Made by a program: the position numbers and the translations under genes. DNA of 64,000 nt from Daedaleopsis sinensis (taxonomy: Eukaryota > Basidiomycota > Agaricomycetes > Polyporales > Polyporaceae), in NCBI GenBank assembly GCA_033807695.1, contig CM066310.1, forward strand, positions 2,418,001 through 2,482,000. Reading direction: 5' to 3'. The notes beneath the pieces are model-generated. The model ran no database searches. It worked only from the letters and a program-made list of their open reading frames with translations, and was not told the origin of the DNA. Below are positions 17,351 to 45,878 of the stretch, in pieces. The stretch's first letter is position 1. The number at the start of each line of letters is the position of its first letter.

Positions 17351-17581
17351 GGGACAGTCAACCCGGCAATGCGAATGGCCCTGGAACAGTCTCAGTATGA
17401 TTGGGCAGCAACGCTGCAGTGTGCGCTTACCTTCTAGCGACCTTCAGTGCGCATCTCCTGTCCTCGTTGCGGATATTGACGAACGACTTGCCCAGGCAGC
17501 TCCGCTTGAAAACGAGGGCTTCGCCCGCCCACCCGTTCGCCGGGGAAGGGTGCGTGATGTATACCGTATATCCCCGCCAAA
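17351..17581 (+). other. element 3' segment at the A/B inversion, with truncated accessory gene acc1
   Basis: After the copy-A stop codon 231 bp of the element's downstream sequence follow, the reverse complement of 27343-27573. It contains, on the minus strand (17581-17427), the last ~51 codons of acc1. At 17581/17582 the sequence flips into the middle of the copy-B helicase. Because the frames agree, the copy-B frame continues into the acc1 remnant and ends at its natural stop. Confidence 0.8.
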
Positions 17582-20500
17582 GGTCGACGTGTTCAAACCG
17601 TCCACGTATTTTCTCCAAAGTTCGAATGGAACTAAGTTGTTCACCAGTCTTAGCGGAAAAACCCAGAACAGAGTGATATGTAGAGCCCCCAACAAGAGCG
17701 GCGCTGCTGCCAGTTGGACCCAACACAATGAACCGGTGAGACTCGTTGCGACGGTCGAGAAAACACATGAGCGCCTTTAGAACCCGAGATTTGCCGGTGC
17801 CGCCCATCCCTCCCAAATACATCCGAAAGGGCGTCTTATCATGATGATGCAAATGAGTCGCGGTGAGGACGAACGCCCGTTGCTGCTCCGAGTTCAAAGT
17901 GAAGTCGCTGATCATATGGTGCAGGAGCAACAAATTGGGATCCTGCAAACCTCGAGGAACTCCCGATTGAAAGGCGGAATGCAACCAGGAGTTGACTTCC
18001 GCAAGGGATACCTCACGCACGATATTCGAATGCTGCGCAAAGTGAGAGGAATCAGGCGAGTCAACGGTGCGTGTGCCCCCTTGCATGCGACTTCTCTCAT
18101 TGTCTCGCGCTTTTTGCAGAAATAACTTCCACTGGATAGGAGAGCGAGAAGGCAGACCAGAAGCAACAGGTTGACAGTCGGTTCCATACTCAGGTAACGA
18201 ATGGTGACCGGTAATGTTTAAGATGGATTGAATTTCGTTCATTTCAAGAGTATTTTTCGAAGAACGCTTCCCTGGAGGACCGGTGTTAAGCACATGGTCA
18301 AGGGTATCGGAGGTGTGTTCTATGCCGGCGTAATCCATAAGCTCCATACCGGCATCAGTAGAAAGCAACGCATCATCCTCTGGCGAGTCGGAAGACATAC
18401 CGACACCGACTTCACGGCGTTGTGCTGCGAAATCATCTCGTGCGTCCAAACACTCATACAGGACGTTCATGTTCCTGATAACCTGCATGTGATCGCGCTG
18501 AAACTGAACAGGACTGAATGCATCCGCCCATGAAGACGCCAGACCACGTAGGTCATCCGGAGTACGCCAGCCCCCCGGTTTGAAGAACACAAGCATGCTC
18601 ATGCAGTACTGTTCTCGATCCCCTTTGTCTGGCCTGGGCAAAGTCGCACCGATAAAGTTTAGTACGTAGCGTTTAGACACCGGGCGTTCAACCACAGTAT
18701 GTGTAGATCTCCGAACATGGCCAGGCAAGAAGGAGTGGGTTCCGACAGGCACGCGCGCTCGAACGCGGTCAGCACCATGCGAGGGTTCCTCGTCGCGTTC
18801 GCACGCATCTTCTGAACCGCTTGAAGAAGAGTCATCCGCAACATATATGTTCCGCCGAGCGGGAATTTTGCGAATATCAGTGCGGCACAAAAAATCGTAC
18901 AGCGTCCAACTCTCAAAAAAAGACGGTCGGTGAGTGTAGTCTGCGACTTTACTCAACTCCACCACTCCATCAGGCGACGTACCCAACAATATGCGCTCCT
19001 GCTGCAACTCAGTGGTGTGATCGGTCTCGGGACCTGCGTCATCTAAGTGAGGAGCAACCGGTTGCGCGGGTTCATAGGGCCTGGCAACATACCGGCAGTA
19101 TGGAAACCAGTGAAATGTCTTAAACACGCAGTCCGTGTAGTGATCTGGATAACCCAACAGGTACGAACACGCCGCTGGCCCGCCGGTCTCAGCAGATGCA
19201 GAGAGAGCATTCACCATCTTCACAATCAGGGTGCGAGCGACGTCAGCGCTTTGTGCAGACGATTGCTCAATAAGTTCTTTACTACGATCGAGCACGGAAC
19301 GCACGGAATCAAAGAACACCTCGGTGGACAGCTTGCTCTTAGTAACGTAGTCGGTAATGTACGCAATGATCGCACGGACCTGTGTACCCGACAACAGGCA
19401 AGTCACATCGGAGTTGCACCGTAGCAAATAACTCAACACAGGATGATAGGTATTTATCCAGCCGTTCGTCTTACGAAATCGAATAGCGCCACTGGAACGG
19501 TCGACTTGAGTCTGAGCATACAAATCGCGTGGAAACCGTGCTCTGCAGAACCCGGGAGGTTTGCCTCTCCAGCACCCTTTGCCGTGGTTGGGATCATGAC
19601 GGTTTGACATGAACACAACCTGATCTGCATCGCGAAGAAGTTGTTGATACCAATCTGCAGCAGCGACATCAACGCGGTCCGGGCTAGAAGGCTGCACGGT
19701 GGCAGGATCACGCACCCCGGCTCTCGCACGCGTGCGCACGGCGGGCTCATCTCCACGCCGTGAGATATAGTCGTCCTCGAACTGAGAACGCAATTCATCC
19801 TCAGTAGAGACGCTGTAATCTCCGGTATGACAAGATTCCAGCCACTCCAGCAAGTCACTCTCAAATTGAGGATCGGACAGTAAGCGGTCACGCAGTTCTT
19901 GAGGGCTCACAGCGTCTTTAATCCACAACAGCAGGTGAAGATGCAACGTCATCCGACCTTGAGACTCCACCGTGCCATAGTAACTTTCGGTGGGTCCGAA
20001 CAGACCCGGACGACCGTCCCCGGAACGAAGCACTACACGAATGAACGTAGTTACTAGAAGGTGAAAAAACCGAGCAGCGCCGACCGGGTTGCCAGCGATC
20101 GCACGTAAACGATGGTCGGAGGAGCGCAGAGTAGGTGCTAGCACGGACAGATCCACGTCTTCACCACAATAATACAAACATAACGGATTTTTAAAGTCAG
20201 CCGGAGCGAATGTAATGAAAAAAACGGGAACACCTTTTTTATAAATCAGAGACCGAATCTCATTACGCTGATATTTGCGTGAAGTGGTCGAGCCGTCCAC
20301 ATGGCCGGCAACACGATCGACGATAGAGATAAGGTCAAAGCACTCCTTCTCTGCTGGAGTGTTGGGAGACACATGCTCGCCAGCAGATGCGCGGCGAATT
20401 ATGCTATCTAGAGCGTCACGGTCAACGTTCAAAATCTTGGAGGCTACAGTGTCGAAATAACCTCGAGTGGTCAGCAGGTATCCACTTTGTGCGGAAGATC

Positions 20501-22337
20501 TGATCTGACGTTGATTAAAAGCAATAAAGGGATAGCAACGATCCAGCTGGAACCGCCTATCGGCGTAGAAAAGGTTAGCTCGTGTGTGCCGGGTAGAATC
20601 CAGTCGGGTAGATATGCCAGAATTGCCAAATCCGCCCAGACCGTACGGATACAGCCAAGGGAACATGCCGGGGTACAAGTCAGGGTTGTGATACACAGAC
20701 TGAGGTTGGATGTCCTGCCCGTAAGCCAAAGCGTTACCGCCGTTTTCAAAGTACCGTATAGCATATGCGACCTTCGCGTCGTAGCTCATACTTGCAAGTT
20801 CGGTAGCAGCTAAAGCGTGCACGACGAATGAGCATTCGCCTGTAACGACACCCCGATTGGATTCAGTCTCATACGAAGCTAGGGTCTCGGGGGCGTCGCC
20901 ATCTCTACCCTTTAGGTAGGTGACATGGACTGGTGGGTGATCTTCAGAGTATTGGGCCAGGTTCTCGTATGAGATACCGATGTCGCTGTACGTATCCGCG
21001 TTGAGCCTCATGCAATTCAAGCTCGCCAGAATTACGTGATGTCTGACAAGAAACGGGGTCCTGCGGACGTCGTTGTCACTGGCCTTAGCGGAACCCACAA
21101 ACAAAATCGCAAGTGAACGCTCTATGTCTTCTTTGGGGGGGGGCAGCATATCATACGCACGAGCGACGGGCTGACCAAACACAATAACGTTCGCAGACAA
21201 GTATCGCTGACCGAGCGCAACCTGCGCTACACAAAAACTGTGCCGATGTCGAGCGATCATCAACTGCTCCACGTAGGACAGGTTCTGGAGCATCGCGGGG
21301 ACAGCCCCAACCCATCGACCGTTGGCCAACGCGTGCCTAGGTATCCGACCCAATCGGACGGACCGCATGCAGACATCGCAGGCAGTCATGGAGGACTTGC
21401 CGTCGACAACAGTCACCGCTGGTTCGTACACGATAGGCCCCGGGATTTCTTCAATGGGATCGCTATCGGTCGCACGGTAGCGTCGAGTGATACCTTCACC
21501 AGCACGCTCTAAACAAGAGAGGTTGACGGAGTCCATGGAAACCACAGAGACGGATCGCGCAGCGACTAACGACCCACACACCGCACAAGGAAGCTCTGCT
21601 AATGAAACCGCAGAGGTGGCCGAGCACCATTCACGCACGATGTCGGCTTTGACATCGACGGTCGCAGGTGGTGGAGGAAAGTTCAAGTTAAACGCGGTCG
21701 CACCACCAACCGCTCGACGGACAGGAATAGGTATCAACTGAACAACTGTCAACACTGACAGACACGGTAAAGAACAGATGTGCACGCGCAGAGCACATAA
21801 CAGCAAACTGCGATCGCGGCGAGCAGCGCGGCTCAAGCGAACACCATGCAGGACAGCCAACTCGGACAGAACGCGGAGACTGCCACGAACAGTATCTCCA
21901 TACGGAATACGAACAACCACAACCGGGGGTTCCACGTCGACAACGTTAGCTACACGCGTAAAGTTCAGATGCCTCCCGCGAAAATCGCAATCGGGGAGAG
22001 CGCCCGCCATGAGCTCGTAGGTCAGGAGCTCGAGTCGACTGTAGAACTCTGAGTGCCCCTGAGCAGGATCAGACACAGTGGACGGAGACGGGCGAACCTG
22101 AATAACGCTCAAAATCGACGCGCACGTCACATCGCAGCGGTGCAAACCGAGCAGACGAGCGACAGACACGTTTGTGTTACGATCCGCTCGAGAAAGACGG
22201 ATGCCATGAAGATGGGCAGTGTCACGGAGCACGCGAGAGCCAGCGGAGAGGGCGACGGACAGAGGAGCCCGAGCCACGAACGGGCGAACCTGAATAACGC
22301 TCAAAATCGACGCGCACGTCACATCGCAGCGGTGCAA
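17427..22337 (-). pseudogene. Helitron Rep-helicase copy B, truncated and fused to acc1
   Basis: A 1636-codon frame carries the N-terminal Cys/His region, the whole Rep (HUH motif MTLHLHLLLW, paired tyrosines AYITDYVTK) and helicase motif I (GMGGTGKS). At the point where the Walker B segment should follow (RFEHVDL) it switches to WRGYTVYITHPS, the acc1 C-terminus. Walker B, later helicase motifs and the protease-like domain are missing. The N-terminus is also rearranged: 63 bp (22089-22151) are repeated at 22281-22343, so the segment HRCDVTCASILSVIQVRP appears twice. The natural first exon and promoter are absent. A stable chimeric Rep protein is conceivable, but transposition activity is unlikely without the helicase. 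Confidence 0.85.
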
Positions 22338-22435
22338 ACCGAGTGGTTAGGATGCGGCAGAAACAGGAGAGTGGCATGTGCGGCAGCGGCTGGAGGCTGA
22401 CAGAGGTCGCAGGGGCTCAGTCTGGACCCGATCGC
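22152..22435. other. junction zone between copy B and the accessory block
   Basis: It contains the 5' end of copy B, then the 63-bp duplicate (22281-22343), then about 92 bp (22344-22435) found nowhere else in the window, before the shared accessory block starts at 22436. The unique piece may be filler DNA from repair, or part of an element terminus. Confidence 0.5.
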
Positions 22436-22768
22436 TGTCGGTGACGTTGACGTGTGAATGTCCGTTGGCAGAAAGGGAGGTCGGCATGTCGAGTGGATGC
22501 ACATGCGCGGATAATGACTAATAGCGGAATACCAGAAATGAAAAAAGACGGATGCAACGCAGTAGTGTGGAGTGCGGAAGGAGCGGAAGTGAACGGATAC
22601 GGTGCGGCGGCAGAGGAGGTGCGGGTCGCGTGCATGTTACCGCGGAGGTGATGTCGGGGTAGGAAGAGCCACACCGACAACTACATATAAGAGTTGTGGA
22701 CGGACGCGGAAGGCAAATAAGTTAGTTCGCGTACAAACAACTACAGCAAAGATACACTGACAACAACG
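22436..22768. promoter_or_regulatory. upstream region of acc4 with TATA box
   Basis: No gene is seen here. CATATAA at 22684-22690 lies ~80 bp before the acc4 start codon and is a likely TATA box. The same sequence recurs at 40741-41073. Position 22436 is the outer edge of the block shared by both copies. Confidence 0.5.
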
Positions 22769-23881
22769 ATGGCATTCTTCGCAGGTGAGCACAGATATGT
22801 TGAAGTGGTGTTGGAGCTGACAGTTGTGCAGTTGACAACCAGCAATGCCGCACGAAGTGGGATGACGGCGTCGGAATTGCAGATCCTGCGCCGCCAAACG
22901 TACCTGCGTGGAGAATCCTCCCCACCGACTACGAAAGTTTGTGCGAGAGACTCACGTTGGACGGTGTTGGACGGAGCGACCGCGAGGTGTTGTTCTGTCA
23001 CCCAGACTTGGATCGCGAGAAGCGTACCGTGGCGTTAGCGCTGAGGTTACAAGGGGTAGTGGCCGACGTCAAGATCAATGCCACTGGCAACTGGACGGGG
23101 TGAGTGTTTATGATCGTGTTAGCAGTGGTGTTCTGATTTCTGTAGTCATCGGGAGGATGCTCCGAAGGCGAGGCAGTGGGTGACACTCACTGGTGGCGGA
23201 AATCAGGCCGCTTTTCGTCCTCAGAAAGACGGAGTCCACAACATCGAGGAGATCATTCGGAACATGGCAGGGGCGGACCAATCGGTGCATCATCCCAACG
23301 ACGGCATGCTGAAACTGCAAAGAGGAGTGTTCACGAAAGTGAGTAGAGACTGACACCGGTGATATGAACGCGGTCGTGCTGACGACTTACAGGCCCGAAC
23401 GGAGGTACAGAGTGCGCCCATCAACATGAGCAAGCACGAAGATCCACAGGGTCGCGCAGCCGGTATGATGCCAGAGTGGTATGTCGATCATCGCATCAAG
23501 ACATGGGTGAAGAACGCGGAAGGTGGTTTTTCCCCGGTGAATGCGTACGCTATCCGGAGGGGTGATCTGGTGGACGTGTTGACGACCGTGGAAATTGTGA
23601 GCATCAAGGCCAAACGTGGATGGCGAGTGGAGGTACATTTCTCTCCCCAAGAGATTGTTCGGCTAGAGGTTGCGAAGAACATGCAGGTGAGTAGATTACA
23701 TACCGGAGGTTATTGGTGGAGACTAACCCGGTTTTTGCAGGGACGGGCGAAGCGACTCGCATCTGTTGGCCAATACAACGTTGCTGCAGAACGCAAGCAT
23801 GATGTCGTGGAGACGTTCGGAGTGCGCGCACGTGAGGGAGGTGAACGGGCAGACGAGGATGGGATGGAGACTCGGGAGTAG
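22769..23881 (+). CDS. Helitron accessory gene acc4: OB-fold-like protein (copy 1)
   Basis: Five exons: 22769-22784, 22832-23099, 23146-23338, 23393-23686 and 23741-23881; introns are 46-54 bp with GTGAG donors, all phases fit, giving 303 residues. The N-terminal half has polar, tryptophan-containing stretches (KWDDGVGIADPAPPN, VADVKINATGNWTG, RQWVTLTGGGNQAAFRP). The middle holds EDPQGRAAGMMPEWYVD and KTWVKNAEGG. Residues ~212-252 (RRGDLVDVL, VEIVSIKAKRG, VEVHFSPQEIVRL) alternate short beta strands and turns in the way OB-fold nucleic-acid-binding domains do. I recognise this as resembling uncharacterised basidiomycete proteins, not a named family. Its place inside the element, running opposite to the transposase, suggests a single-strand DNA-binding helper; this is inference. 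Confidence 0.72.
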
Positions 23882-24002
23882 CCACTGAGAGGGGGAGAAG
23901 GAGTGCGCGGAACGAGCTGTGTTTGCATTGAAGGGGACTGCGACAAGATGCATATCGAAGCACGAATAGTTGTACTGGAAGCTGGAGAGGCGAACAACAT
24001 GA

Positions 24003-24971
24003 TTAACATCTAGCACTGCGGCGGAGATCTTCACGACGAATGAGGAGCACTATCGACCGAAAACGCACTTCCACACTGTACTGGACAGGATTACTTCCCC
24101 GGACAATGCAACATCGTAGTCGAATGACATCTCCGACGTGCAGTGTAGGCTCGGAGCTGGACATCGCGGGACCGCCAGATTCATCACTAATTTCAGAGAA
24201 TGCCTGGGATGAATAGTCAGGGTGATGCCCAGATGATCGAACGAGTTATTCACCTCGCCCGCGGCTGTAAAACTTGACCGGTAGAAAGCCTTCAGGACCG
24301 AGCAGCTGCTCGGACGATCTGCTGAGAGAGGCGTTAGCGGCGACGTTCATTGCGGGAGTAGCGAAGCACGCACAAGGTCGGTTCATGTTGTTGATAACGC
24401 GGAGTGCATCTCTGTCGACACCGCGCAACAGAGACACGTGGATGAAGGAGGCAGTGATATCGCACGGACTACCAACCTCCCACCTGAATTTCTGCAGTAC
24501 CCCGACTACAGAGAACTCGAACAACCGACTGTTGTTACACAGCACACGGGCAAGGATGCGTGGTCCCCATTCAACGGTGGAGGGGATGTTTGATAACGTG
24601 CACACGCCGTCGCGGCGGTCTTCCAACTCACGATGTAAATATCTACACAAAAAAATCAGAATGTGTCCTGGATATGCAACACAGCGTCTCACGGATAGTG
24701 ATGTCCTCTTGAGAAGTCGCCCCACGACGGGAAGCACAGTTGCAGCTTACGCAGGGCGTAGTCGTGAGCAGCGACATCTTGAGAATTGATAGACAGTCGA
24801 GCACGGCTGGTACTAACGCTGCAGGTAAGACGGGAATATAGACATATTGATAAGCGAACGAACATACGTAGAAGACGCAGCCAGTGGCCCAGTGCGATAC
24901 GCGGAGGGCGGGTTCCAATGATCGGGCAGAGCGAGAACGAGGTCGCGCATTTCGTCGTTGGAGGGAGTCAT
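24003..24971 (-). CDS. Helitron accessory gene acc3: second OB-fold-like protein (copy 1)
   Basis: Four exons on the minus strand: 24971-24868, 24818-24693, 24642-24279 and 24203-24003; 264 residues. The first two introns are standard (GTATGT...CTGCAG, GTGAGA...GTGTAG). The third (24204-24278) uses a weak GTCAAG donor but joins two frames with sensible sequence; otherwise the protein ends at 24246 after SRGRGE. The start is MTPSNDEMRDLVLALP. The middle (LFEFSVVGVLQKFRW, ITASFIHVSLLRGVDRDAL) has no family resemblance I can name. The last exon reads LHVGDVIRLRCCIVRG, then YSVEVRFRSIVLLIRR, close in layout to the acc4 C-terminus. It is convergent with acc4, only 121 bp apart stop to stop. Function unknown; nucleic-acid binding is a guess. 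Confidence 0.6.
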
Positions 24972-25373
24972 AGTGAAGTAGGTACCACCGGAGGTATTGA
25001 AAATCGCATGATGTTATACGGCAAGATTGAGGCTGAGAGCGGCTGACCGGATGGAGGGTACACAGACAGAGGCGGACAGATATGTGGCGAAGACGGCGTG
25101 GTGTGTAGTGAACCTTGCGCACCTAATCGTCCACGGAGGCCAACTATCAGACTAAATGCGAACGAAGTGTGCCAGGGGATTGAGAGGGAGCTTTGAAGCG
25201 GGACGAAGACGATGACGGCAGGGAACGAGTTAAGCGCTCGCGGCGAATTCGCAGTGGTCGTACGCGCGCGCTAAAGATGTATATTTCGGATAATGGTATG
25301 TGAACGTTCATTTAAACAGGGAAACCGCGAAGTAATGATACAAGTAGGTACATATACATCATCGATCTGTGGT

Positions 25374-26163
25374 TCAACGTGAATTGAGATCGGACAGCGC
25401 ACCAGCCACCAACAGGCGAGACATCGGTCCCGGTAAAATGTTCGCCAGCTGGTGCGAGAGAAACAAGCGAACGTCTGGAGCGTCGGTCAAGATGCGCTGG
25501 GGCGTGTTACTGTCCAGGTGCAGTTTGATCATCGCGAACAGCTGTATGCAAACAGTTGGAGTCAACAGCCACAACCACCACAACGACTTTCTCACCTGGC
25601 CAAAGTCGGTGAACAACTTGTACGTGCACATGTACGCGGTGCAGTGCTCAGCTACGGCGGGCACAATACGGTCTTGAGAGTGGTGGATCAGGTTGCGTCC
25701 GGGGTCGGTGGTACCGGCGGCGGTGAGGCGTATGCAAACTTGGCCATGGCAGTCACCGCGGGCGCAACCTTCGACGTACAAGGCGAGCACCACTCCCACC
25801 TGTGAATGGATATCAGAGACGTAACGTAGAACAAAGTGGTAGGCATACGTGAGCATCGGGAATATTTCCGCTGTATGCCGATGGCTGCATGAACATGGTA
25901 GGTTCGGACTGTACGAATGTAACGGTGAGCACGGTGGAGGATACGGTATCTGCGCACCATACCATAATCTTCCTCAACGAGTGGCGCATTGATGCGGAGG
26001 CTGGTTCATACGCGCAGTGCACTCTCGGAATGTCGATCCAGGACAGAACGTGGGCGAGCGCTCGGAGGTAACCATGGCCAGCAGGTCCGTTGATGTAGAC
26101 CACAATCGGGACAGAGTTTGACGACATGTCCGGAGTGGAGGTGTGCAACGACAGGCTGACCAT
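25374..26163 (-). CDS. Helitron accessory gene acc2: unknown protein (copy 1)
   Basis: Two exons on the minus strand: 26163-25849 and 25799-25374, with one 49-bp intron (GTATGC...CACAG) joining in phase; 246 residues. The start reads MVSLSLHTSTPDMSSNSV; a second ATG at codon 13 is possible. The chain is rich in short hydrophobic strands and cysteines (VPIVVYINGPAGHG, GVVLALYVEGCARGDCHG, SLWWLWLLTPTVCIQLFAM). Near residue 185 there is a hydrophobic stretch that might cross a membrane, but it is flanked by charged sequence and not convincing. No family is recognised. It is transcribed in the same direction as the transposase and acc3, about 400 bp upstream of acc3. Confidence 0.5.
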
Positions 26164-27098
26164 CGGTCGACATGTTATAGTATGAATTACGCGGTAAATT
26201 TGCAGTTCAAACGAGCTACGGTAGGCGAAGAGCGGAAGTGCGAAACGGGATGCAAACCGACAGGAGAGAGATCGGTCGGATCGGATGCGGGAAGATAGTG
26301 GCCGCGGGTGGTGCCACCGGACAGAACGTGAACGGACTGCAGGCAGAGGTAGGACAGGAGGATGACCCCGTGCCGAATGCCGTGGGCCACACGTTCGGAA
26401 GGAGCGCATGCATGTGAACGAGATCGGAGCGTCTTCAACGGCACGGCGTGGACTACGGGCTGTGGTCAGAACTCGCACAGGAGGATGACATGACAGAGGG
26501 GCGCACATTGAAGCCGAGTGGACGTTGCGATAACCGCCGGTGGCGGGAGGAGCATATTCAATCAGGCAGATGTCGACTAGGGGGTGTGCGCACAGGGGGA
26601 TAACAGGACAGAGGGTACAGATCGGAAGCTGACAGGACAGAGCGCATACTGCGGGGCAAAAACTGGGTGTTCAGATACAATGCGACAACAGCGGACATTG
26701 GGACGGTGCGCAAGGAGGTGAACGACAGAGGAGCGTCTTGAACGGCACGGATGTCGACTAGGGGCTGCTAGGGGCACTGACCGGAATCTGAGTGGACTGT
26801 GGTCGGAACGTGAACGAGTGAGGAGGCGAGCCGCATACCCGGTTAGAAGGCATGACGGAAGGGGTGCTGCAAATGTGCACACGGGCTTCGAACGGATACA
26901 GAGCAGGGAAGTGGCGGAGTGAACACTGAGCGAGTACGGGCCCTGAGAGGAGCGGATGAGCGGGAGAGTAAGGAGCGGATGCGGCACGAAGCTAGGGGCG
27001 GTTAGACAGTGAGGTATGCGAAAATACGTGATTAGAGACGTTGTAGAAACGTATATATGGGTCACTGGACGGGGCTTACCGACGCTGACCGATACACA
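26164..27098. promoter_or_regulatory. divergent promoter region between acc2 and acc1, purine-rich
   Basis: acc2 (-) and acc1 (+) start from opposite ends of this 935-bp gap. TATATAT at 27052-27058 lies ~41 bp before the acc1 ATG, and TTATAG at 26175-26180 may serve acc2. Between them the plus strand is unusually G/A-rich with recurring words such as GAACGTGAACG, ACAGGACAGAG and GGATGTCGACTAGGGGCTG. Long open frames on the minus strand here (up to 192 codons) are composition artefacts. The same block recurs at 44469-45403 and, from its edge, at 50482-51396. Confidence 0.5.
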
Positions 27099-27497
27099 AT
27101 GGTATACCAAGTGAGTATCATAATTCACAGAGCCTCCAAGTGAGAAGCTGACCAATCTCAGGTGAAGAACATGCGCGCTCTAGTCATTCCCGTTGTTGGG
27201 AATTGCAAGTACATGCATGTCGTTGTTCACCGTTACGCAGACGCGGGTGGTCACGACATAGCGATCACGTCGGCGTCGTACTCCATCGCCGGTGATCAAT
27301 ACGAACACAGCAGCTTCGCCCGCGACCTCGCGGCGAGACCGATTTGGCGGGGATATACGGTATACATCACGCACCCTTCCCCGGCGAACGGGTGGGCGGG
27401 CGAAGCCCTCGTTTTCAAGCGGAGCTGCCTGGGCAAGTCGTTCGTCAATATCCGCAACGAGGACAGGAGATGCGCACTGAAGGTCGCTAGAAGGTAA
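27099..27497 (+). CDS. Helitron accessory gene acc1: small conserved protein (copy 1)
   Basis: Exons 27099-27110 (MVYQ) and 27162-27497, intron 51 bp (GTGAGT...CTCAG) in phase; 115 residues. The product is basic and beta-rich in appearance: ALVIPVVGNCKYMHVVVHRY, DIAITSASYSI, WRGYTVYITHPS, GEALVFKRSCLGKSFV, RRCALKVARR. No family is recognised. The stop lies 76 bp beyond the stop codon of the transposase, which runs toward it, so the two genes are convergent. Identical copies exist at 45404 and 51397, and a truncated one inside the copy-B fusion. With a TATA box 41 bp upstream, it is a credible real gene of the element. Confidence 0.68.
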
Positions 27498-27573
27498 GCG
27501 CACACTGCAGCGTTGCTGCCCAATCATACTGAGACTGTTCCAGGGCCATTCGCATTGCCGGGTTGACTGTCCC

Positions 27574-30500
27574 TCAGTCAGCTCGAGCGTAGAGATAATG
27601 ACTCGCAGGTGCCCCCCGTGCGGATCTTAGGAAAGCCGGATGGGGTGGAGATTGCTCGGGGATGCAGTTACGGCCTGTAACAATACCATCGTGATACCAC
27701 ACACGGTGGTCACGGTCGATGTAACGTGCGGTGTAGTGGCCAGGTGAGAAGTACAGCACACCAGCCAAACGCCAGTGTACATGTGAATTGGTATCATCTG
27801 TGAGAGTGAGGTCCAAGTCTGGAATAAGTTCACAGTTTCGGAGAGTCTCGAACATGAGGATGTTAGGACATTGACGCAGAGCGACGCGAACGGTCACGGA
27901 GGCGTGGCACACCATGCAAGGGGCAGAGTATGCAACGCGCAAAAGAGCGGTAGCGTAAAGTTGAACTGAAATAGAAAGGGCCGCGGTCTCCCAATCTGGT
28001 GGACACATCCACATGCAAGTCATGCCCAGGTCAGGTACGTGTGTAGGTATCAAACCACACCGCTCGCAAGTACCGACCACGCGTCCAAATGCAACTGGAG
28101 AGTTAAGCATCAATCGGGCAAACTCGGACAGAACAGCACCGTGCGGACCAGTACGAGGGAAAGCAACTCGGTCCAGAGCGCTGACAACGTCCCGGATAGC
28201 GTCCCGGGTGACTTCCAGATACGATATGTCCTGCGAGATATGAGGAAGCGCGGTGGCAAACATGGTGAACAGAGGATTACAGGGCAGGACTGACTGCGCC
28301 CAGTCCACACCGTGGTCGACGGACAAATTCCACAGAATCGTTAACAGTGCATCGTACGAGCAGCTGTAATTCGCACTGTCCCAAATCAGACCGTGTCGGA
28401 CGCAAGCAGAGGGTGCATCGACGGGGACGGTAGCAGTCACGGAAGGCGCGAGGTCGTAGGCCGCGCGATCGGGTTCTGCGAGCGGATTGGTCCGCTTCTT
28501 GCGACGAGAAGATGTCCAGTCCCCTGTCGGTGAACGAGCTCGCTTAGTCGCGGAAGAGCTGGTGGGAGCACGAGGAGCTACTGAGTGAGATGGCGCACCG
28601 CTTACCGACAACGCAAGTTCGGCGTCGGATGCAGTGGACCAGTTCAACACAGGGGGAACGAGAGCCGGTACGAAACGCCTCCCGTGGTGAGCCATATAAG
28701 CCGCTATGATAGCGCCGCGAGTAACGCCGAATATAGAGGGATGAAGGTTGTTTTCAACCCGAAGCCGAGTGATATCATCCAGAATTTCTAGTTCGCGGTA
28801 TTCGCGACGGAGGTCGGCAGCCGCGCCACCCTGTACGTAGGAACGGTCGAAGCCTTCAATTATCAATGTGTTCTTCAGAGACGAGCTGCGAGAGAGACAG
28901 GTGTAAATAGACTGATGTGTTCGACAAAGTTTCAAGTACAGTACGTTATACTCAAGTGTGCGTCCTTGGCATGCAAAGTCTGTCATGGAAAAGTTGGGCA
29001 ACACCGCCACTTGCTCCCGTTGAACAGATACGTATAGGTCGTTTACCGGAAGTAAACAACGAACCGGTAATCTCTGACGTCCGAGAGGAATGACATTCAG
29101 AGGCAGTCCTTCGAGATGAACATCTCGCGGTGGATTGACCAGCCTGACAAACAGCGTGTCAAGTGTCAGTCTACCGAGGTGAACTCGAGAAACCCAGTCG
29201 TAAACGACAGCTTCGGCGCCGTTAGTAGCACAAAGCTCGGTTGCTTCGTTATGCTTCAAGAGAACAGGCATCCCGATGCACAACTCCAAGATGCCCGCAT
29301 GATGTTCTGTGAGCGCAGGCGGCACCTTCCAAAGCACCTTCTGCAACCTCGGCGAAACGTCATGTGTGACACGTACTGGATCGACGGTGGAGTCATATAT
29401 CCGCTGCGCCTGGCGGACTGAATCTGAGTCTTTGTTTTTACCCCATTTGTCAATGGAATAGAAGCGGTATAGTTTTTTTCCAGTATCACGCGCGAATTTC
29501 TTAGCGTTCATGGAGTTGATCCCGTCGCGATGCGAGTTTCGAGCAGTGATAATCGATACTCCTCCAAAATTACCCGCGAGGTGAGAGTTGTCACCTGAAC
29601 GAGGATGACACACACGGGTGTTCAACGTCGCGATATCGTCCGCGGTACAGCGAGCGTAGCGCATGTTTTCGAGAGCACGACGAAAGCGTACATCATCCTC
29701 CGAAAGACCACGCTGTCGCATGTTAGTCCGGAGGATGACAACGGTCGTAAACAAGTGCCAAAGCGCTTTCCCTAAGGCACACTTTTGGTCGAATTGTCTC
29801 ACCGAAGATGTCCACGCGCCCACCGCTCCGCTATACAGCGGAGGAGCGTTAGCAGGAGGAGGAAGTTGCGCGAAGTCGCCGGCCAAAATGATGTTCTTCC
29901 CGCCGAAGCTGAGAGTGCTATCTCCGAAGGCCTTCGTCAGCTGCTCATGAATGAAATATAACGCGTTGCAAGATATCATAGATACCTCGTCTATAAACAC
30001 GAGGTCGACGTGTTCAAACCGTCCACGTATTTTCTCCAAAGTTCGAATGGAACTAAGTTGTTCACCAGTCTTAGCGGAAAAACCCAGAACAGAGTGATAT
30101 GTAGAGCCCCCAACAAGAGCGGCGCTGCTGCCAGTTGGACCCAACACAATGAACCGGTGAGACTCGTTGCGACGGTCGAGAAAACACATGAGCGCCTTTA
30201 GAACCCGAGATTTGCCGGTGCCGCCCATCCCTCCCAAATACATCCGAAAGGGCGTCTTATCATGATGATGCAAATGAGTCGCGGTGAGGACGAACGCCCG
30301 TTGCTGCTCCGAGTTCAAAGTGAAGTCGCTGATCATATGGTGCAGGAGCAACAAATTGGGATCCTGCAAACCTCGAGGAACTCCCGATTGAAAGGCGGAA
30401 TGCAACCAGGAGTTGACTTCCGCAAGGGATACCTCACGCACGATATTCGAATGCTGCGCAAAGTGAGAGGAATCAGGCGAGTCAACGGTGCGTGTGCCCC

Positions 30501-33500
30501 CTTGCATGCGACTTCTCTCATTGTCTCGCGCTTTTTGCAGAAATAACTTCCACTGGATAGGAGAGCGAGAAGGCAGACCAGAAGCAACAGGTTGACAGTC
30601 GGTTCCATACTCAGGTAACGAATGGTGACCGGTAATGTTTAAGATGGATTGAATTTCGTTCATTTCAAGAGTATTTTTCGAAGAACGCTTCCCTGGAGGA
30701 CCGGTGTTAAGCACATGGTCAAGGGTATCGGAGGTGTGTTCTATGCCGGCGTAATCCATAAGCTCCATACCGGCATCAGTAGAAAGCAACGCATCATCCT
30801 CTGGCGAGTCGGAAGACATACCGACACCGACTTCACGGCGTTGTGCTGCGAAATCATCTCGTGCGTCCAAACACTCATACAGGACGTTCATGTTCCTGAT
30901 AACCTGCATGTGATCGCGCTGAAACTGAACAGGACTGAATGCATCCGCCCATGAAGACGCCAGACCACGTAGGTCATCCGGAGTACGCCAGCCCCCCGGT
31001 TTGAAGAACACAAGCATGCTCATGCAGTACTGTTCTCGATCCCCTTTGTCTGGCCTGGGCAAAGTCGCACCGATAAAGTTTAGTACGTAGCGTTTAGACA
31101 CCGGGCGTTCAACCACAGTATGTGTAGATCTCCGAACATGGCCAGGCAAAAAGGAGTGGGTTCCGACAGGCACGCGCGCTCGAACGCGGTCAGCACCATG
31201 CGAGGGTTCCTCGTCGCGTTCGCACGCATCTTCTGAACCGCTTGAAGAAGAGTCATCCGCAACATATATGTTCCGCCGAGCGGGAATTTTGCGAATATCA
31301 GTGCGGCACAAAAAATCGTACAGCGTCCAACTCTCAAAAAAAGACGGTCGGTGAGTGTAGTCTGCGACTTTACTCAACTCCACCACTCCATCAGGCGACG
31401 TACCCAACAATATGCGCTCCTGCTGCAACTCAGTGGTGTGATCGGTCTCGGGACCTGCGTCATCTAAGTGAGGAGCAACCGGTTGCGCGGGTTCATAGGG
31501 CCTGGCAACATACCGGCAGTATGGAAACCAGTGAAATGTCTTAAACACGCAGTCCGTGTAGTGATCTGGATAACCCAACAGGTACGAACACGCCGCTGGC
31601 CCGCCGGTCTCAGCAGATGCAGAGAGAGCATTCACCATCTTCACAATCAGGGTGCGAGCGACGTCAGCGCTTTGTGCAGACGATTGCTCAATAAGTTCTT
31701 TACTACGATCGAGCACGGAACGCACGGAATCAAAGAACACCTCGGTGGACAGCTTGCTCTTAGTAACGTAGTCGGTAACGTACGCAATGATCGCACGGAC
31801 CTGTGTACCCGACAACAGGCAAGTCACATCGGAGTTGCACCGTAGCAAATAACTCAACACAGGATGATAGGTATTTATCCAGCCGTTCGTCTTACGAAAT
31901 CGAATAGCGCCACTGGAACGGTCGACTTGAGTCTGAGCATACAAATCGCGTGGAAACCGTGCTCTGCAGAACCCGGGAGGTTTGCCTCTCCAGCACCCTT
32001 TGCCGTGGTTGGGATCATGACGGTTTGACATGAACACAACCTGATCTGCATCGCGAAGAAGTTGTTGATACCAATCTGCAGCAGCGACATCAACGCGGTC
32101 CGGGCTAGAAGGCTGCACGGTGGCAGGATCACGCACCCCGGCTCTCGCACGCGTGCGCACGGCGGGCTCATCTCCACGCCGTGAGATATAGTCGTCCTCG
32201 AACTGAGAACGCAATTCATCCTCAGTAGAGACGCTGTAATCTCCGGTATGACAAGATTCCAGCCACTCCAGCAAGTCACTCTCAAATTGAGGATCGGACA
32301 GTAAGCGGTCACGCAGTTCTTGAGGGCTCACAGCGTCTTTAATCCACAACAGCAGGTGAAGATGCAACGTCATCCGACCTTGAGACTCCACCGTGCCATA
32401 GTAACTTTCGGTGGGTCCGAACAGACCCGGACGACCGTCCCCGGAACGAAGCACTACACGAATGAACGTAGTTACTAGAAGGTGAAAAAACCGAGCAGCG
32501 CCGACCGGGTTGCCAGCGATCGCACGTAAACGATGGTCGGAGGAGCGCAGAGTAGGTGCTAGCACGGACAGATCCACGTCTTCACCACAATAATACAAAC
32601 ATAACGGATTTTTAAAGTCAGCCGGAGCGAATGTAATGAAAAAAACGGGAACACCTTTTTTATAAATCAGAGACCGAATCTCATTACGCTGATATTTGCG
32701 TGAAGTGGTCGAGCCGTCCACATGGCCGGCAACACGATCGACGATAGAGATAAGGTCAAAGCACTCCTTCTCTGCTGGAGTGTTGGGAGACACATGCTCG
32801 CCAGCAGATGCGCGGCGAATTATGCTATCTAGAGCGTCACGGTCAACGTTCAAAATCTTGGAGGCTACAGTGTCGAAATAACCTCGAGTGGTCAGCAGGT
32901 ATCCACTTTGTGCGGAAGATCTGATCTGACGTTGATTAAAAGCAATAAAGGGATAGCAACGATCCAGCTGGAACCGCCTATCGGCGTAGAAAAGGTTAGC
33001 TCGTGTGTGCCGGGTAGAATCCAGTCGGGTAGATATGCCAGAATTGCCAAATCCGCCCAGACCGTACGGATACAGCCAAGGGAACATGCCGGGGTACAAG
33101 TCAGGGTTGTGATACACAGACTGAGGTTGGATGTCCTGCCCGTAAGCCAAAGCGTTACCGCCGTTTTCAAAGTACCGTATAGCATATGCGACCTTCGCGT
33201 CGTAGCTCATACTTGCAAGTTCGGTAGCAGCTAAAGCGTGCACGACGAATGAGCATTCGCCTGTAACGACACCCCGATTGGATTCAGTCTCATACGAAGC
33301 TAGGGTCTCGGGGGCGTCGCCATCTCTACCCTTTAGGTAGGTGACATGGACTGGTGGGTGATCTTCAGAGTATTGGGCCAGGTTCTCGTATGAGATACCG
33401 ATGTCGCTGTACGTATCCGCGTTGAGCCTCATGCAATTCAAGCTCGCCAGAATTACGTGATGTCTGACAAGAAACGGGGTCCTGCGGACGTCGTTGTCAC

Positions 33501-34945
33501 TGGCCTTAGCGGAACCCACAAACAAAATCGCAAGTGAACGCTCTATGTCTTCTTTGGGGGGGGGCAGCATATCATACGCACGAGCGACGGGCTGACCAAA
33601 CACAATAACGTTCGCAGACAAGTATCGCTGACCGAGCGCAACCTGCGCTACACAAAAACTGTGCCGATGTCGAGCGATCATCAACTGCTCCACGTAGGAC
33701 AGGTTCTGGAGCATCGCGGGGACAGCCCCAACCCATCGACCGTTGGCCAACGCGTGCCTAGGTATCCGACCCAATCGGACGGACCGCATGCAGACATCGC
33801 AGGCAGTCATGGAGGACTTGCCGTCGACAACAGTCACCGCTGGTTCGTACACGATAGGCCCCGGGATTTCTTCAATGGGATCGCTATCGGTCGCACGGTA
33901 GCGTCGAGTGATACCTTCACCAGCACGCTCTAAACAAGAGAGGTTGACGGAGTCCATGGAAACCACAGAGACGGATCGCGCAGCGACTAACGACCCACAC
34001 ACCGCACAAGGAAGCTCTGCTAATGAAACCGCAGAGGTGGCCGAGCACCATTCACGCACGATGTCGGCTTTGACATCGACGGTCGCAGGTGGTGGAGGAA
34101 AGTTCAAGTTAAACGCGGTCGCACCACCAACCGCTCGACGGACAGGAATAGGTATCAACTGAACAACTGTCAACACTGACAGACACGGTAAAGAACAGAT
34201 GTGCACGCGCAGAGCACATAACAGCAAACTGCGATCGCGGCGAGCAGCGCGGCTCAAGCGAACACCATGCAGGACAGCCAACTCGGACAGAACGCGGAGA
34301 CTGCCACGAACAGTATCTCCATACGGAATACGAACAACCACAACCGGGGGTTCCACGTCGACAACGTTAGCTACACGCGTAAAGTTCAGATGCCTCCCGC
34401 GAAAATCGCAATCGGGGAGAGCGCCCGCCATGAGCTCGTAGGTCAGGAGCTCGAGTCGACTGTAGAACTCTGAGTGCCCCTGAGCAGGATCAGACACAGT
34501 GGACGGAGACGGGCGAACCTGAATAACGCTCAAAATCGACGCGCACGTCACATCGCAGCGGTACAAACCGAGCAGACGAGCGACAGACACGTTTGTGTTA
34601 CGATCCGCTCGAGAAAGACGGATGCCATGAAGATGGGCAGTGTCACGGAGCACGCGAGAGCCAGCGGAGAGGGCGACGGACAGAGGAGCCCGAGCCACGA
34701 CAGTATGTGCATCCAGATGAAGCAGTGGTACTTCTTCTGCTAGTACGCACCGCAGGAAAGACGCGGTGAACTCTCCAGCAGGAAGTTCACCGGCGATGAG
34801 GTGGTAGGACTTCATATCCTCTGATGAGATTGCGCATGACGATGGTACTAAACAGACATTAGAGCAGATTCAGAAACACAGTAGAGCTCAACGTACGGAG
34901 CGGAAGGCCGTTCGATTGGTGGAGCGTAAGGGCCGGAGTAGACAT
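27574..34945 (-). CDS. Helitron Rep/helicase with C-terminal USP-like domain, intact copy C
   Basis: Two exons on the minus strand: 34945-34897 and 34847-27574, with a 49-bp intron (GTACGT...TTTAG); 2440 residues. Order: a Cys-bearing N-terminal region including CDVCMRSVRLGRIPRHALAN (~365); the Rep nuclease with VFFITFAPADFKNPL, HUH motif MTLHLHLLLW (~846) and paired tyrosines AYVTDYVTK (~1040); a Pif1-type helicase with GMGGTGKS (~1560), VDLVFIDEVSM, NIILAGDFAQLPP, LRTNMRQ and TDFACQGRTLEYNVLY; a basic linker (TKRARSPTGDW, SRRKKRTNP) likely for nuclear import; and a C-terminal domain with NYSCSYDALLTIL (~2177) and SPGHYTARYID...WYHDG (~2387), matching Cys and His boxes of ubiquitin-specific proteases, plus paired CxxC motifs. 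This is the only copy with first exon, promoter and full frame. It would nick and unwind DNA for rolling-circle transposition. Confidence 0.9.
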
Positions 34946-35407
34946 GTCTAGGAGGGAGGACAGAAAGCGGGGGACGGACACAGGCATATATAGCAAGGAA
35001 GGCAGTGACTCCCGAAAGAATAGGAGCGTTGGACGACGCACAGGAGTCCGTCTACAAATAATAGCAGTCAGCCAAAGGGGCACACACGTCGGGAGTAACC
35101 GGGTGACGCAGCGGGTGCCATCGGGCATCACGTGTGTCCGAGTTTTCTGAAGGAGAACTTACCGATTCACAATGGAATCGCAACCGGAGACTGCCACGAA
35201 CAGTATCTCCATACGGAATACGAACAACCACAACCGGGGGTTCCACGTCGACAACGTTAGCTACACGCGTAAAGTTCAGATGCCTCCCGCGAAAATCGCA
35301 ATCGGGGAGAGCGCCCGCCATGAGCTCGTAGGTCAGGAGCTCGAGTCGACTGTAGAACTCTGAGTGCCCCTGAGCAGGATCAGACACAGTGGACGGAGAC
35401 GGGCGAA
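34946..35407. other. copy C upstream region joined to a stray transposase fragment
   Basis: 34946-35184 (239 bp) occurs once in the window and is the native upstream region of the transposase. From 35185 to 35407 the sequence repeats 34295-34517, an internal N-terminal piece of the same gene, and then joins the copy-D helicase. Shared bases at the two joins are CGGAGA (35185-35190) and GGCGAA (35402-35407). On the plus strand an ATG at 35172 in good context starts a short frame, possibly the remnant of a divergent gene. Confidence 0.6.
34985..34992 (-). promoter_or_regulatory. TATA box of the intact transposase gene
   Basis: The minus strand reads CTATATATG about 40 bp upstream of the ATG at 34945. 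The other six copies lack this region, so only copy C keeps the native promoter in this window. Confidence 0.6.
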
Positions 35408-38400
35408 ACGTCATGTGTGACACGTACTGGATCGACGGTGGAGTCATATATCCGCTGCGCCTGGCGGACTGAATCTGAGTCTTTGTTTTTACCCCATTTG
35501 TCAATGGAATAGAAGCGGTATAGTTTTTTTCCAGTATCACGCGCGAATTTCTTAGCGTTCATGGAGTTGATCCCGTCGCGATGCGAGTTTCGAGCAGTGA
35601 TAATCGATACTCCTCCAAAATTACCCGCGAGGTGAGAGTTGTCACCTGAACGAGGATGACACACACGGGTGTTCAACGTCGCGATATCGTCCGCGGTACA
35701 GCGAGCGTAGCGCATGTTTTCGAGAGCACGACGAAAGCGTACATCATCCTCCGAAAGACCACGCTGTCGCATGTTAGTCCGGAGGATGACAACGGTCGTA
35801 AACAAGTGCCAAAGCGCTTTCCCTAAGGCACGCTTTTGGTCGAATTGTCTCACCGAAGATGTCCACGCGCCCACCGCTCCGCTATACAGCGGAGGAGCGT
35901 TAGCAGGAGGAGGAAGTTGCGCGAAGTCGCCGGCCAAAATGATGTTCTTCCCGCCGAAGCTGAGAGTGCTATCTCCGAAGGCCTTCGTCAGCTGCTCATG
36001 AATGAAATATAACGCGTTGCAAGATATCATAGATACCTCGTCTATAAACACGAGGTCGACGTGTTCAAACCGTCCACGTATTTTCTCCAAAGTTCGAATG
36101 GAACTAAGTTGTTCACCAGTCTTAGCGGAAAAACCCAGAACAGAGTGATATGTAGAGCCCCCAACAAGAGCGGCGCTGCTGCCAGTTGGACCCAACACAA
36201 TGAACCGGTGAGACTCGTTGCGACGGTCGAGAAAACACATGAGCGCCTTTAGAACCCGAGATTTGCCGGTGCCGCCCATCCCTCCCAAATACATCCGAAA
36301 GGGCGTCTTATCATGATGATGCAAATGAGTCGCGGTGAGGACGAACACCCGTTGCTGCTCCGAGTTCAAAGTGAAGTCGCTGATCATATGGTGCAGGAGC
36401 AACAAATTGGGATCCTGCAAACCTCGAGGAACTCCCGATTGAAAGGCGGAATGCAACCAGGAGTTGACTTCCGCAAGGGATACCTCACGCACGATATTCG
36501 AATGCTGCGCAAAGTGAGAGGAATCAGGCGAGTCAACGGTGCGTGTGCCCCCTTGCATGCGACTTCTCTCATTGTCTCGCGCTTTTTGCAGAAATAACTT
36601 CCACTGGATAGGAGAGCGAGAAGGCAGACCAGAAGCAACAGGTTGACAGTCGGTTCCATACTCAGGTAACGAATGGTGACCGGTAATGTTTAAGATGGAT
36701 TGAATTTCGTTCATTTCAAGAGTATTTTTCGAAGAACGCTTCCCTGGAGGACCGGTGTTAAGCACATGGTCAAGGGTATCGGAGGTGTGTTCTATGCCGG
36801 CGTAATCCATAAGCTCCATACCGGCATCAGTAGAAAGCAACGCATCATCCTCTGGCGAGTCGGAAGACATACCGACACCGACTTCACGGCGTTGTGCTGC
36901 GAAATCATCTCGTGCGTCCAAACACTCATACAGGACGTTCATGTTCCTGATAACCTGCATGTGATCGCGCTGAAACTGAACAGGACTGAATGCATCCGCC
37001 CATGAAGACGCCAGACCACGTAGGTCATCCGGAGTACGCCAGCCCCCCGGTTTGAAGAACACAAGCATGCTCATGCAGTACTGTTCTCGATCCCCTTTGT
37101 CTGGCCTGGGCAAAGTCGCACCGATAAAGTTTAGTACGTAGCGTTTAGACACCGGGCGTTCAACCACAGTATGTGTAGATCTCCGAACATGGCCAGGCAA
37201 AAAGGAGTGGGTTCCGACAGGCACGCGCGCTCGAACGCGGTCAGCACCATGCGAGGGTTCCTCGTCGCGTTCGCACGCATCTTCTGAACCGCTTGAAGAA
37301 GAGTCATCCGCAACATATATGTTCCGCCGAGCGGGAATTTTGCGAATATCAGTGCGGCACAAAAAATCGTACAGCGTCCAACTCTCAAAAAAAGACGGTC
37401 GGTGAGTGTAGTCTGCGACTTTACTCAACTCCACCACTCCATCAGGCGACGTACCCAACAATATGCGCTCCTGCTGCAACTCAGTGGTGTGATCGGTCTC
37501 GGGACCTGCGTCATCTAAGTGAGGAGCAACCGGTTGCGCGGGTTCATAGGGCCTGGCAACATACCGGCAGTATGGAAACCAGTGAAATGTCTTAAACACG
37601 CAGTCCGTGTAGTGATCTGGATAACCCAACAGGTACGAACACGCCGCTGGCCCGCCGGTCTCAGCAGATGCAGAGAGAGCATTCACCATCTTCACAATCA
37701 GGGTGCGAGCGACGTCAGCGCTTTGTGCAGACGATTGCTCAATAAGTTCTTTACTACGATCGAGCACGGAACGCACGGAATCAAAGAACACCTCGGTGGA
37801 CAGCTTGCTCTTAGTAACGTAGTCGGTAACGTACGCAATGATCGCACGGACCTGTGTACCCGACAACAGGCAAGTCACATCGGAGTTGCACCGTAGCAAA
37901 TAACTCAACACAGGATGATAGGTATTTATCCAGCCGTTCGTCTTACGAAATCGAATAGCGCCACTGGAACGGTCGACTTGAGTCTGAGCATACAAATCGC
38001 GTGGAAACCGTGCTCTGCAGAACCCGGGAGGTTTGCCTCTCCAGCACCCTTTGCCGTGGTTGGGATCATGACGGTTTGACATGAACACAACCTGATCTGC
38101 ATCGCGAAGAAGTTGTTGATACCAATCTGCAGCAGCGACATCAACGCGGTCCGGGCTAGAAGGCTGCACGGTGGCAGGATCACGCACCCCGGCTCTCGCA
38201 CGCGTGCGCACGGCGGGCTCATCTCCACGCCGTGAGATATAGTCGTCCTCGAACTGAGAACGCAATTCATCCTCAGTAGAGACGCTGTAATCTCCGGTAT
38301 GACAAGATTCCAGCCACTCCAGCAAGTCACTCTCAAATTGAGGATCGGACAGTAAGCGGTCACGCAGTTCTTGAGGGCTCACAGCGTCTTTAATCCACAA

Positions 38401-40740: not shown

Positions 40741-41073
40741 TGTCGGTGACGTTGACGTGTGAATGTCCGTTGGCAGAAAGGGAGGTCGGCATGTCGAGTG
40801 GATGCACATGCGCGGATAATGACTAATAGCGGAATACCAGAAATGAAAAAAGACGGATGCAACGCAGTAGTGTGGAGTGCGGAAGGAGCGGAAGTGAACG
40901 GATACGGTGCGGCGGCAGAGGAGGTGCGGGTCGCGTGCATGTTACCGCGGAGGTGATGTCGGGGTAGGAAGAGCCACACCGACAACTACATATAAGAGTT
41001 GTGGACGGACGCGGAAGGCAAATAAGTTAGTTCGCGTACAAACAACTACAGCAAAGATACACTGACAACAACG

Positions 41074-42186: not shown

Positions 42187-42307
42187 CCACTGAGAGGGGG
42201 AGAAGGAGTGCGCGGAACGAGCTGTGTTTGCATTGAAGGGGACTGCGACAAGATGCATATCGAAGCACGAATAGTTGTACTGGAAGCTGGAGAGGCGAAC
42301 AACATGA

Positions 42308-43276: not shown

Positions 43277-43678
43277 AGTGAAGTAGGTACCACCGGAGGT
43301 ATTGAAAATCGCATGATGTTATACGGCAAGATTGAGGCTGAGAGCGGCTGACCGGATGGAGGGTACACAGACAGAGGCGGACAGATATGTGGCGAAGACG
43401 GCGTGGTGTGTAGTGAACCTTGCGCACCTAATCGTCCACGGAGGCCAACTATCAGACTAAATGCGAACGAAGTGTGCCAGGGGATTGAGAGGGAGCTTTG
43501 AAGCGGGACGAAGACGATGACGGCAGGGAACGAGTTAAGCGCTCGCGGCGAATTCGCAGTGGTCGTACGCGCGCGCTAAAGATGTATATTTCGGATAATG
43601 GTATGTGAACGTTCATTTAAACAGGGAAACCGCGAAGTAATGATACAAGTAGGTACATATACATCATCGATCTGTGGT

Positions 43679-45802: not shown

Positions 45803-45878
45803 GCGCACACTGCAGCGTTGCTGCCCAATCATACTGAGACTGTTCCAGGGCCATTCGCATTGCCGGGTTGACTGTCCC

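Follow-up and report, generated by a model that had tools for sequence, protein, structure and literature searches.

The 64,000-nucleotide stretch of Daedaleopsis sinensis DNA analysed here (the window; contig C11, 2418001-2482000) carries copies of a large Helitron2-type rolling-circle transposon with additional genes downstream of its Rep-helicase. We consider it probable that this block of genes is a conserved accessory module of the transposon and that one of its products, acc1, is a predicted T7 gp2.5-type single-stranded-DNA-binding protein (SSB) that would likely coat the DNA strand peeled off in transposition. The Rep-helicase and the accessory genes acc4, acc1 and acc5 co-occur in fixed order and strand in six elements, one of which is bounded exactly as a 24-kb unit found on two contigs. 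The searched genome comprises 51.6 Mb in 24 contigs. Window coordinates are used unless a contig is named, and values above 64000 lie to the right of the window.

The accessory module accompanies the Rep-helicase

The Rep-helicase gene (27574-34945, reverse strand) starts with an ATG at 34945 and a presumed short first exon and intron, followed by a single 2431-codon open frame (27574-34869). This frame holds DUF6570, Helitron_like_N (E 1e-25) and PIF1 (E 3.6e-18) in one protein and thus unites the HUH Rep and PIF1-type helicase that define a Helitron. The protein is 52-58% identical to the Reps of two other elements, with a nonsynonymous divergence (dN) of 0.38-0.44 and saturated synonymous sites in three of three pairs.

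The initial annotation proposed that a Helitron-type element carries several accessory genes, arranged as a block with both transcriptional orientations. The joint Rep and PIF1 frame and the dispersed relatives described below bear this out. The block is also repeated together with Rep in sufficiently complete copies, as had been claimed: 22436-27098 recurs at 100% (rounded) in the second complete copy (40739-50481) and in pieces outside the window. At the DNA level it has six matches genome-wide, all within one cluster on C11. This repetition is not independent evidence, because the copies are near-identical pieces of a single local cluster, and for the same reason the earlier argument from copies C, E and F is insufficient to show that the block belongs to the element. 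The conclusion itself stands. That the accessory block is genuine and part of the element is demonstrated by evidence from beyond the window: homologues beside Rep at all five dispersed places and the bounded 24-kb relative.

Of the ten places matched by acc1, five belong to the cluster; the others are on C9 (two), C3, C2 and C4. At each of these five dispersed loci acc1 is antisense to a Helitron_like_N match and lies on its downstream side, about 6-14.5 kb away. One of the five cluster copies lacks its own Rep and adjoins an inverted Rep piece. acc4 has ten matches (five in the cluster), and acc5 occurs at eight places (three in the cluster) with four weak paralogue matches in addition; all of these lie in the six elements. 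Genome searches with acc1, acc4 and acc5 gave no match outside them. The dispersed homologues are 33-62% identical, and the order Rep, acc4 (reverse), acc1 (reverse), acc5 is kept in six of six elements. No counterparts of acc2 and acc3, which lie between acc4 and acc1 in the C11 element, were seen at that place in the two C9 elements, C9A and C9B.

acc1, a predicted single-stranded-DNA-binding protein

acc1 (22769-23881, forward strand) encodes 303 amino acids in five exons (22769-22784, 22832-23099, 23146-23338, 23393-23686 and 23741-23881). The first is a 16-base micro-exon (MA[F/Y]F) with a GT donor directly after it, and it occupies the same place in five of five families. Annotated proteins of Trametes, Ganoderma and Cerioporus match acc1 across the micro-exon join and have the same beginning. 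All gene models were derived from conserved exons joined by hand, because an automatic gene finder fused neighbouring genes on whole elements. The predicted models of acc1 and acc4 are supported by homologues in five other elements, and their splicing is supported by sequence conservation. Putative TATA-like boxes were recognised by eye.

Exon 4, compared among the five families, has dN of 0.17-0.57, and synonymous differences are saturated or dS is at least 1.88 in ten of ten pairs, which indicates that acc1 is under purifying selection. Over the three pairs used for Rep, the dN of acc1 is 0.48-0.51. A single-sequence search found no homologue at E 0.01, whereas a five-family profile retrieved 12, from eight named Polyporales genera and Suillus. 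Among the homologues are proteins of Lenzites betulinus (C2E23DRAFT_740292), Trametes sanguinea (FKP32DRAFT_1614341), Ganoderma leucocontextum (LXA43DRAFT_1056720) and Grifola frondosa (A0H81_02092 and A0H81_02175). acc1 is therefore a possible marker gene for Helitron annotation.

The AlphaFold2 (AF2) model of the Trametes acc1 homologue has a predicted local distance difference test score (pLDDT) of 87. It shows an oligonucleotide/oligosaccharide-binding (OB) fold with a long helix right after strand 2, the arrangement typical of T7-type SSBs. The eight best VIA rows were viral or phage SSBs or uncharacterised structural relatives of them, ranked over generic OB-folds; identity to the best aligned chains is 9-12%. 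On the basis of this model, acc1 is predicted to be an SSB of the type found in T7 (gp2.5) and in giant viruses (nucleocytoplasmic large DNA viruses, NCLDV). Searches of acc1 against PDB sequences gave nothing credible (the best match, to a sulfotransferase at E 0.13, was judged to be chance), nor did NCBIfam, and the acc1 profile found nothing in viral contigs. The idea that all accessory proteins are RPA was considered and rejected.

The other accessory genes

acc4 (27099-27592, forward strand; exons 27099-27110, 27162-27493 and 27544-27592) is convergent with Rep and in the present model covers the Rep stop codon by 19 bases. Its in-phase joins were read by eye, and its homologues stand beside Rep in the five other elements. 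acc2 (24003-24971, reverse strand; exact 3' splice sites tentative) was recognised with a paralogous-family profile as a paralogue of acc5 and acc6, two further genes in the 3' part of the C11 family, outside the window. acc3 (25374-26163, reverse strand) is an unverified model. We found no homologue of it in C9A, C9B or the fetched parts of the C2 and C4 elements, and its status as a gene is doubtful. Of the four spliced genes first annotated, acc1, acc4 and, with the caveat on its splice sites, acc2 are retained.

A profile built from the first half of acc5 identified family members in every element compared. There are three in C11 (acc2, acc5 and acc6), two in C9B and six clear members plus one weak member in C9A, and the partial fetches hold five (C4) and four (C2). 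Positions W, D, M, L-E and R are common to ten representatives joined by hand. The family had nothing credible in PHROGs and matches one short metagenome protein.

Other genes vary among the elements. The C4 element has a gene model between Rep and acc1 (L044:1647-3214) without a Pfam match, which we take to be F-box-like and possibly nucleotidyltransferase-like. The 3'-most gene of the 24-kb element encodes a TET/JBP-like dioxygenase (C9:477253-478587 and C3:3768992-3770326; Pfam Tet_JBP E 0.0016, below the cut-off). Among the six elements, the genome search placed this gene only in C9A and its C3 copy; relatives occur at C3:3057660, C3:4392550, C5:214342, C5:2390243, C8:987795 and other places.

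A bounded 24-kb relative and the element ends

The C9A element (C9 477128-501094; 23,967 bp) has exactly delimited ends. A second copy on C3 matches it over the full length at 100% (rounded), except for three C3 inserts of about 7.4, 7.4 and 1.3 kb, and the homology ends at the identical two points on both sides. The C9A flanks match (95%) an element-free tandem-repeat unit 32 kb away (GATGGCCCATTTTGAATC). The filled site and the empty site (CCCATTTTGAATC) differ by the element alone, without target duplication. One T is assignable to either end, so we claim only insertion at a T; a strict T^T target was rejected. Across six insertions the base preceding the 5' TTCCG is A, G or T. Five further places carry both ends of C9A (73-87 bases from the 5' terminus and 46-50 from the 3' terminus) at a distance of 746-787 bp, one of them with a truncated 5' end; these are short non-autonomous elements. 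A search with two patterns did not locate the 3' end of C9B.

The C11 family has the ends TTGCGATTCCATTGTGAATCGG (5') and GTGGAATCGCATATGGCGTGCGAAGCAGCGCGCTCACCCTACAAGT (3'), and C9A has TTCCGATTCCACTAAAGAATCGG (5') and GTGGAATCGGGACTAGCGTGCGGAGCATCGCGATCACCTACCAAGT (3'). In the window, the 5' terminus TTGCGATTCCATTGTGAATCGG (35163-35183, reverse strand) forms a hairpin, and its TGCGATTCCA is the inverted repeat of TGGAATCGCA at the 3' end (125520, outside the window). The C9 element has the corresponding asymmetric pair CCGATTCCAC (5') and GTGGAATCGG (3'). On folding, the 5' hairpins form, and the 3' hairpin is clear in C11 and not clear in C9A. Asymmetric terminal inverted repeats and terminal hairpins are the Helitron2 features described in the parts of PMC5148889 that we compared, and both are present here. 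The canonical ends of Helitron1 and HELPO1 (CTRR, A/T insertion) were not seen in the three elements whose ends were compared, which terminate in ...CAAGT or ...CAAG. Because no endonuclease domain was found, we do not file the element as a Helentron: the last 675 residues of the Rep frame have no Pfam match to the AP endonuclease, a Helentron trait, up to E 10.

The same C-terminal part of Rep (27574-28900) carries the conserved motifs SC.YD..LT.LWNL and HYT.RYID....YHDG, the cysteine being lost in C9A. These presumably resemble motifs of a cysteine protease or deubiquitinase; Pfam and PDB sequences gave no match for this region. A search of prokaryotic contigs with Rep returned nothing.

Two further observations concern these relatives and their surroundings. 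A tandem repeat with 7,944-bp spacing (C9:501093-558855) borders C9A and probably C9B. Rfam found no rRNA family in it (three loci, parts searched), so an identity of these repeats as rDNA is unsupported. Two of the C3 inserts are exactly 7,406 bp long (C3:3777489-3784894 and C3:3798258-3805663), each with a 2-base overlap of the flanks, and both probably belong to one other transposon family.

The cluster in the window

The C11 cluster spans 12442-125520 (113 kb, up to C11 2543520) and extends 61.5 kb beyond the right end of the window. Truncated, inverted and nested copies have piled up locally here, in front of the start of a thymidylate synthase gene. The pieces stand in both orientations, are variously truncated and meet at junctions that are blunt or overlap by a few bases. 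Identity is 99.9-100% among long pieces and 98.4 and 99.6% for two short ones, and three foreign stretches (5.1, 1.4 and 19.8 kb) lie inside the cluster. The pile-up arose either by recent aberrant rolling-circle amplification or as an assembly hazard.

The main copy occupies 22343-35183 (reverse strand), in place of the 22436-34945 first assigned. A BLAST map of all pieces, with the 5' terminus placed by comparison with other families, shows that it holds element positions 1-12841 of about 16,896; its 5' end is complete, and the sequence breaks off at 22343 before the 3' end is reached. Beyond this break, identical sequence continues in three other cluster pieces for up to 4.05 kb, and one of them reaches the 3' end at 125520. 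Joining the main copy to the longest piece (110915-125513; overlap about 10.5 kb at 99.99%) gives a 16.9-kb ruler for the full element. The earlier estimate of at least 12.5 kb and at least four genes was right in describing a large, gene-rich element; it has to be raised to about 16.9 kb, and the 3' quarter with acc5 and acc6 falls outside the window.

The second copy (40739-50481, reverse strand; 9743 bp, 99.97% identical to 22434-32176) includes acc1-acc4 in full (41074-45897) together with the 3' portion of Rep. The third (50482-59031, reverse strand) begins at reference position 26184 and has only Rep and acc4 (about 51397-51890). To the left of the main copy, 12442-22342 consists of Rep fragments of the C11 element in both orientations, where the only accessory sequence is the end of one acc4, in an inverted piece (12779-17581). 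The 5' end of the main copy is joined to Rep fragments of a further copy (35182-40740, reverse strand). An inverted Rep 5' fragment (59027-61697, forward strand) is palindromic with the third copy. The near-palindromic pieces here are 56445-59031 and 59111-61697, 79 bases apart, and there is a tail-to-tail joint at 81381-81383. The last cluster piece has, directly on its left, a tandem array of 8-9 units of about 207 bp (108499-110309; C11:2526499-2528309).

At the right edge, the element's 3' end is about 90 bp before the start of an intact-looking thymidylate synthase gene (Pfam E 2.5e-50). The flanks of the window's family do not have the form of a clean insertion: a 387-bp host duplication (one mismatch) of the 5' part of this gene is present, at 12059-12445 and 125521-125907 (C11:2543521-2543907). 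The left-edge copy has a Pfam E of 5e-28, and the 387-bp figure excludes seven adjoining aligned bases that are the element's own end. A paralogous host segment (90-95%) that includes an FMO-like gene also lies on both sides of the cluster (5000-9264 and 130688-134443). A telomere-linked element was considered and rejected, as the cluster lies 2.4 Mb into a 3.49-Mb contig.

Proposed role and alternative explanations

In Helitron transposition the helicase peels off a strand, and this single-stranded DNA needs protection until it is circularised and pasted. We propose that Rep, with its HUH nuclease and PIF1 helicase, would nick at a T and unwind a strand of 17-24 kb, and that acc1 may coat and protect the peeled strand and aid the helicase. 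The acc2/acc5/acc6 family would probably supply further nucleic-acid-binding partners. An SSB borne by the element suits the need to protect 17-24 kb of single-stranded DNA, and the RPA-like SSBs of plant and animal Helitrons are a precedent (PMC4683698, in the passages compared).

Several results weigh against this interpretation. On the side of the module, none of the copies found in the cluster for the window's own family is complete from the 5' to the 3' end. The genome has at least 72 Helitron_like_N matches, and 60 of the 72 lie outside the six elements without an adjoining acc1 match. An element on C7 shares the 3' terminus, and its Rep and the C9A Rep have 58% identity over 464 residues, yet the C7 element ends about 450 bp past the Rep stop without the module. 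A Rep of this lineage can thus exist without the module, which is not strictly needed in cis. Together with the 60 Reps that lack acc1, this makes the module a trait of one lineage that can be lost. On the side of protein function, the AF2 model is that of the Trametes homologue, 38% identical to the window's acc1, rather than of acc1 itself. Foldseek gave low TM-scores for the best six rows (0.34-0.38 by query length and 0.47-0.54 by target), and the C-terminal tail of acc1, judged by eye, is only mildly acidic (for example GMVFEQEDVMDTL and ADEDGMETRE). The acc2/acc5/acc6 family matches nothing in Pfam or PDB, and a single-sequence AF2 model of acc2 (pLDDT 33) was not used. Comparison of acc1 with this family by hhalign aligned a GD-V / EV-F-V-L hairpin at E 0.0095 and a probability of 4%, so that a relationship between the two is only a lead.

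The predicted fold is the sole link of acc1 to SSBs: no credible sequence match to solved chains was obtained, and a common fold does not prove a function. acc1 could instead be an OB-fold protein that does not bind single-stranded DNA and serves another purpose, such as assisting Rep in a structural or regulatory capacity. We regard this as rather unlikely, given that viral and phage SSBs and their relatives precede generic OB-folds among the eight best VIA rows, that the T7-type hallmark helix is present in the model, and that the carrier is a rolling-circle element.

The accessory genes might also be recently captured host genes or fragments, passive cargo as in HELPO1 and maize Helitrons. 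HELPO1 copies bear one to four genes that are called captured in the passages compared, and contents vary among the six elements (the TET/JBP-like gene in C9A and its C3 copy only, the F-box-like model in C4, acc3 in C11 only). Passive fragments should decay, whereas order and strand are retained here at 33-62% identity; acc1, which is under purifying selection, diverges only slightly faster than Rep, and acc1, acc4 and acc5 were found at no site outside the elements in this genome. This explanation is already disfavoured, and we judge it improbable. We give least credence of all, and very little, to a local segmental amplification of a host region that holds Rep and its neighbours by chance, with an immobile block. 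The six nearly identical DNA matches in one 113-kb cluster with inverted and truncated pieces would agree with it, as would the 387-bp host duplication in place of a clean insertion. Five dispersed elements with diverged versions contradict it, as does the 24-kb relative, which has defined termini and an empty site and recurs on a different contig; terminal inverted repeats of this kind are also present in the C11 family.

Beyond the conserved module, we speculate that the elements could represent a 17-24 kb, replicon-like Helitron lineage of Agaricomycetes with its own kit for handling single-stranded DNA. It would combine a virus-derived SSB of the T7/NCLDV type with an element-borne paralogous family of OB-type genes undergoing expansion within the transposon (one element has six clear members and a weak seventh), and would be evolving toward an autonomous rolling-circle replicon. 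We put this forward tentatively, as possible but less likely than not.

Comparison with known systems

We compared the element with descriptions in passages of open-licence papers (PMC6431247, PMC4289320, PMC5148889, PMC4067079, PMC12730594, PMC9741609, PMC4683698 and PMC5686142). HELPO1 of Pleurotus ostreatus, another basidiomycete Helitron, measures 1.5-13.7 kb and has between one and four additional genes on the downstream side of RepHel; capB is reported to neighbour RepHel in several other basidiomycetes as well (PMC4289320). HELPO1 differs in its canonical ends (T[C/G], CTRR, A/T target) and a Rep of about 1400 amino acids, and the passages compared name no SSB among its genes. As gene-carrying fungal Helitrons were already known from HELPO1, and the proto-Helentron also has extra genes, the initial description of a new type of element is overstated, and we regard the element as a variant. 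Helitrons of maize, up to 39 kb long, are described as bearing gene fragments.

The Helitron2-like FoHeli elements of Fusarium oxysporum share the asymmetric terminal inverted repeats and hairpins and also lack an endonuclease domain. They are about 5-11 kb long, one subgroup has one extra open reading frame of unknown kind, and the parts of the paper compared report that no RPA-like gene was found (PMC5148889). Helentrons and proto-Helentron-Pi resemble our element in T-rich targets without duplication and in extra genes, including a Phytophthora element of about 14 kb. Their Rep has an AP endonuclease, and the extras named in the passages compared are RPA, OTU, SET and hypothetical proteins rather than a viral-type SSB (PMC4067079). 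The TET/JBP-carrying Helitron2 of Agaricus bisporus (PMC12730594, in part) resembles the 24-kb C9 relative with its TET/JBP-like gene at the 3' end; the genome search found no such gene in the window's family.

The predicted acc1 fold, including the long helix after strand 2, resembles T7 gp2.5, Enc34 ORF6 and DUF2815 (PMC5686142, in the passages compared), and also African swine fever virus (ASFV) CP312R, which was compared by PDB title. It differs from T7-type SSBs in its location in a eukaryotic transposon, 9-12% identity, an extra N-terminal region and the mildly acidic tail. Among the top-ranked papers of our searches in the open-licence PMC literature, mostly judged by title or opening of the abstract, we found none that combines Helitrons with a T7-type SSB, nor any report of a Helitron2 element whose conserved module includes an SSB of viral type.

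With this module, the loosely defined captured genes of fungal Helitrons become a conserved set under selection that likely plays a part in transposition itself, and the predicted SSB, if real, could explain how a single strand of 17-24 kb is moved. RPA-like SSBs borne by elements are already known, so a viral-type SSB would be an independent solution, linking eukaryotic transposons to the replication proteins of phages and giant viruses. The RPA genes of plant Helitrons share with acc1, as predicted, the principle of an element-borne single-stranded-DNA-binding protein, but are of the RPA type as opposed to the T7/giant-virus type predicted here. The passages compared count at least three independent acquisitions of SSBs (PMC4683698), and acc1 would represent a further one.

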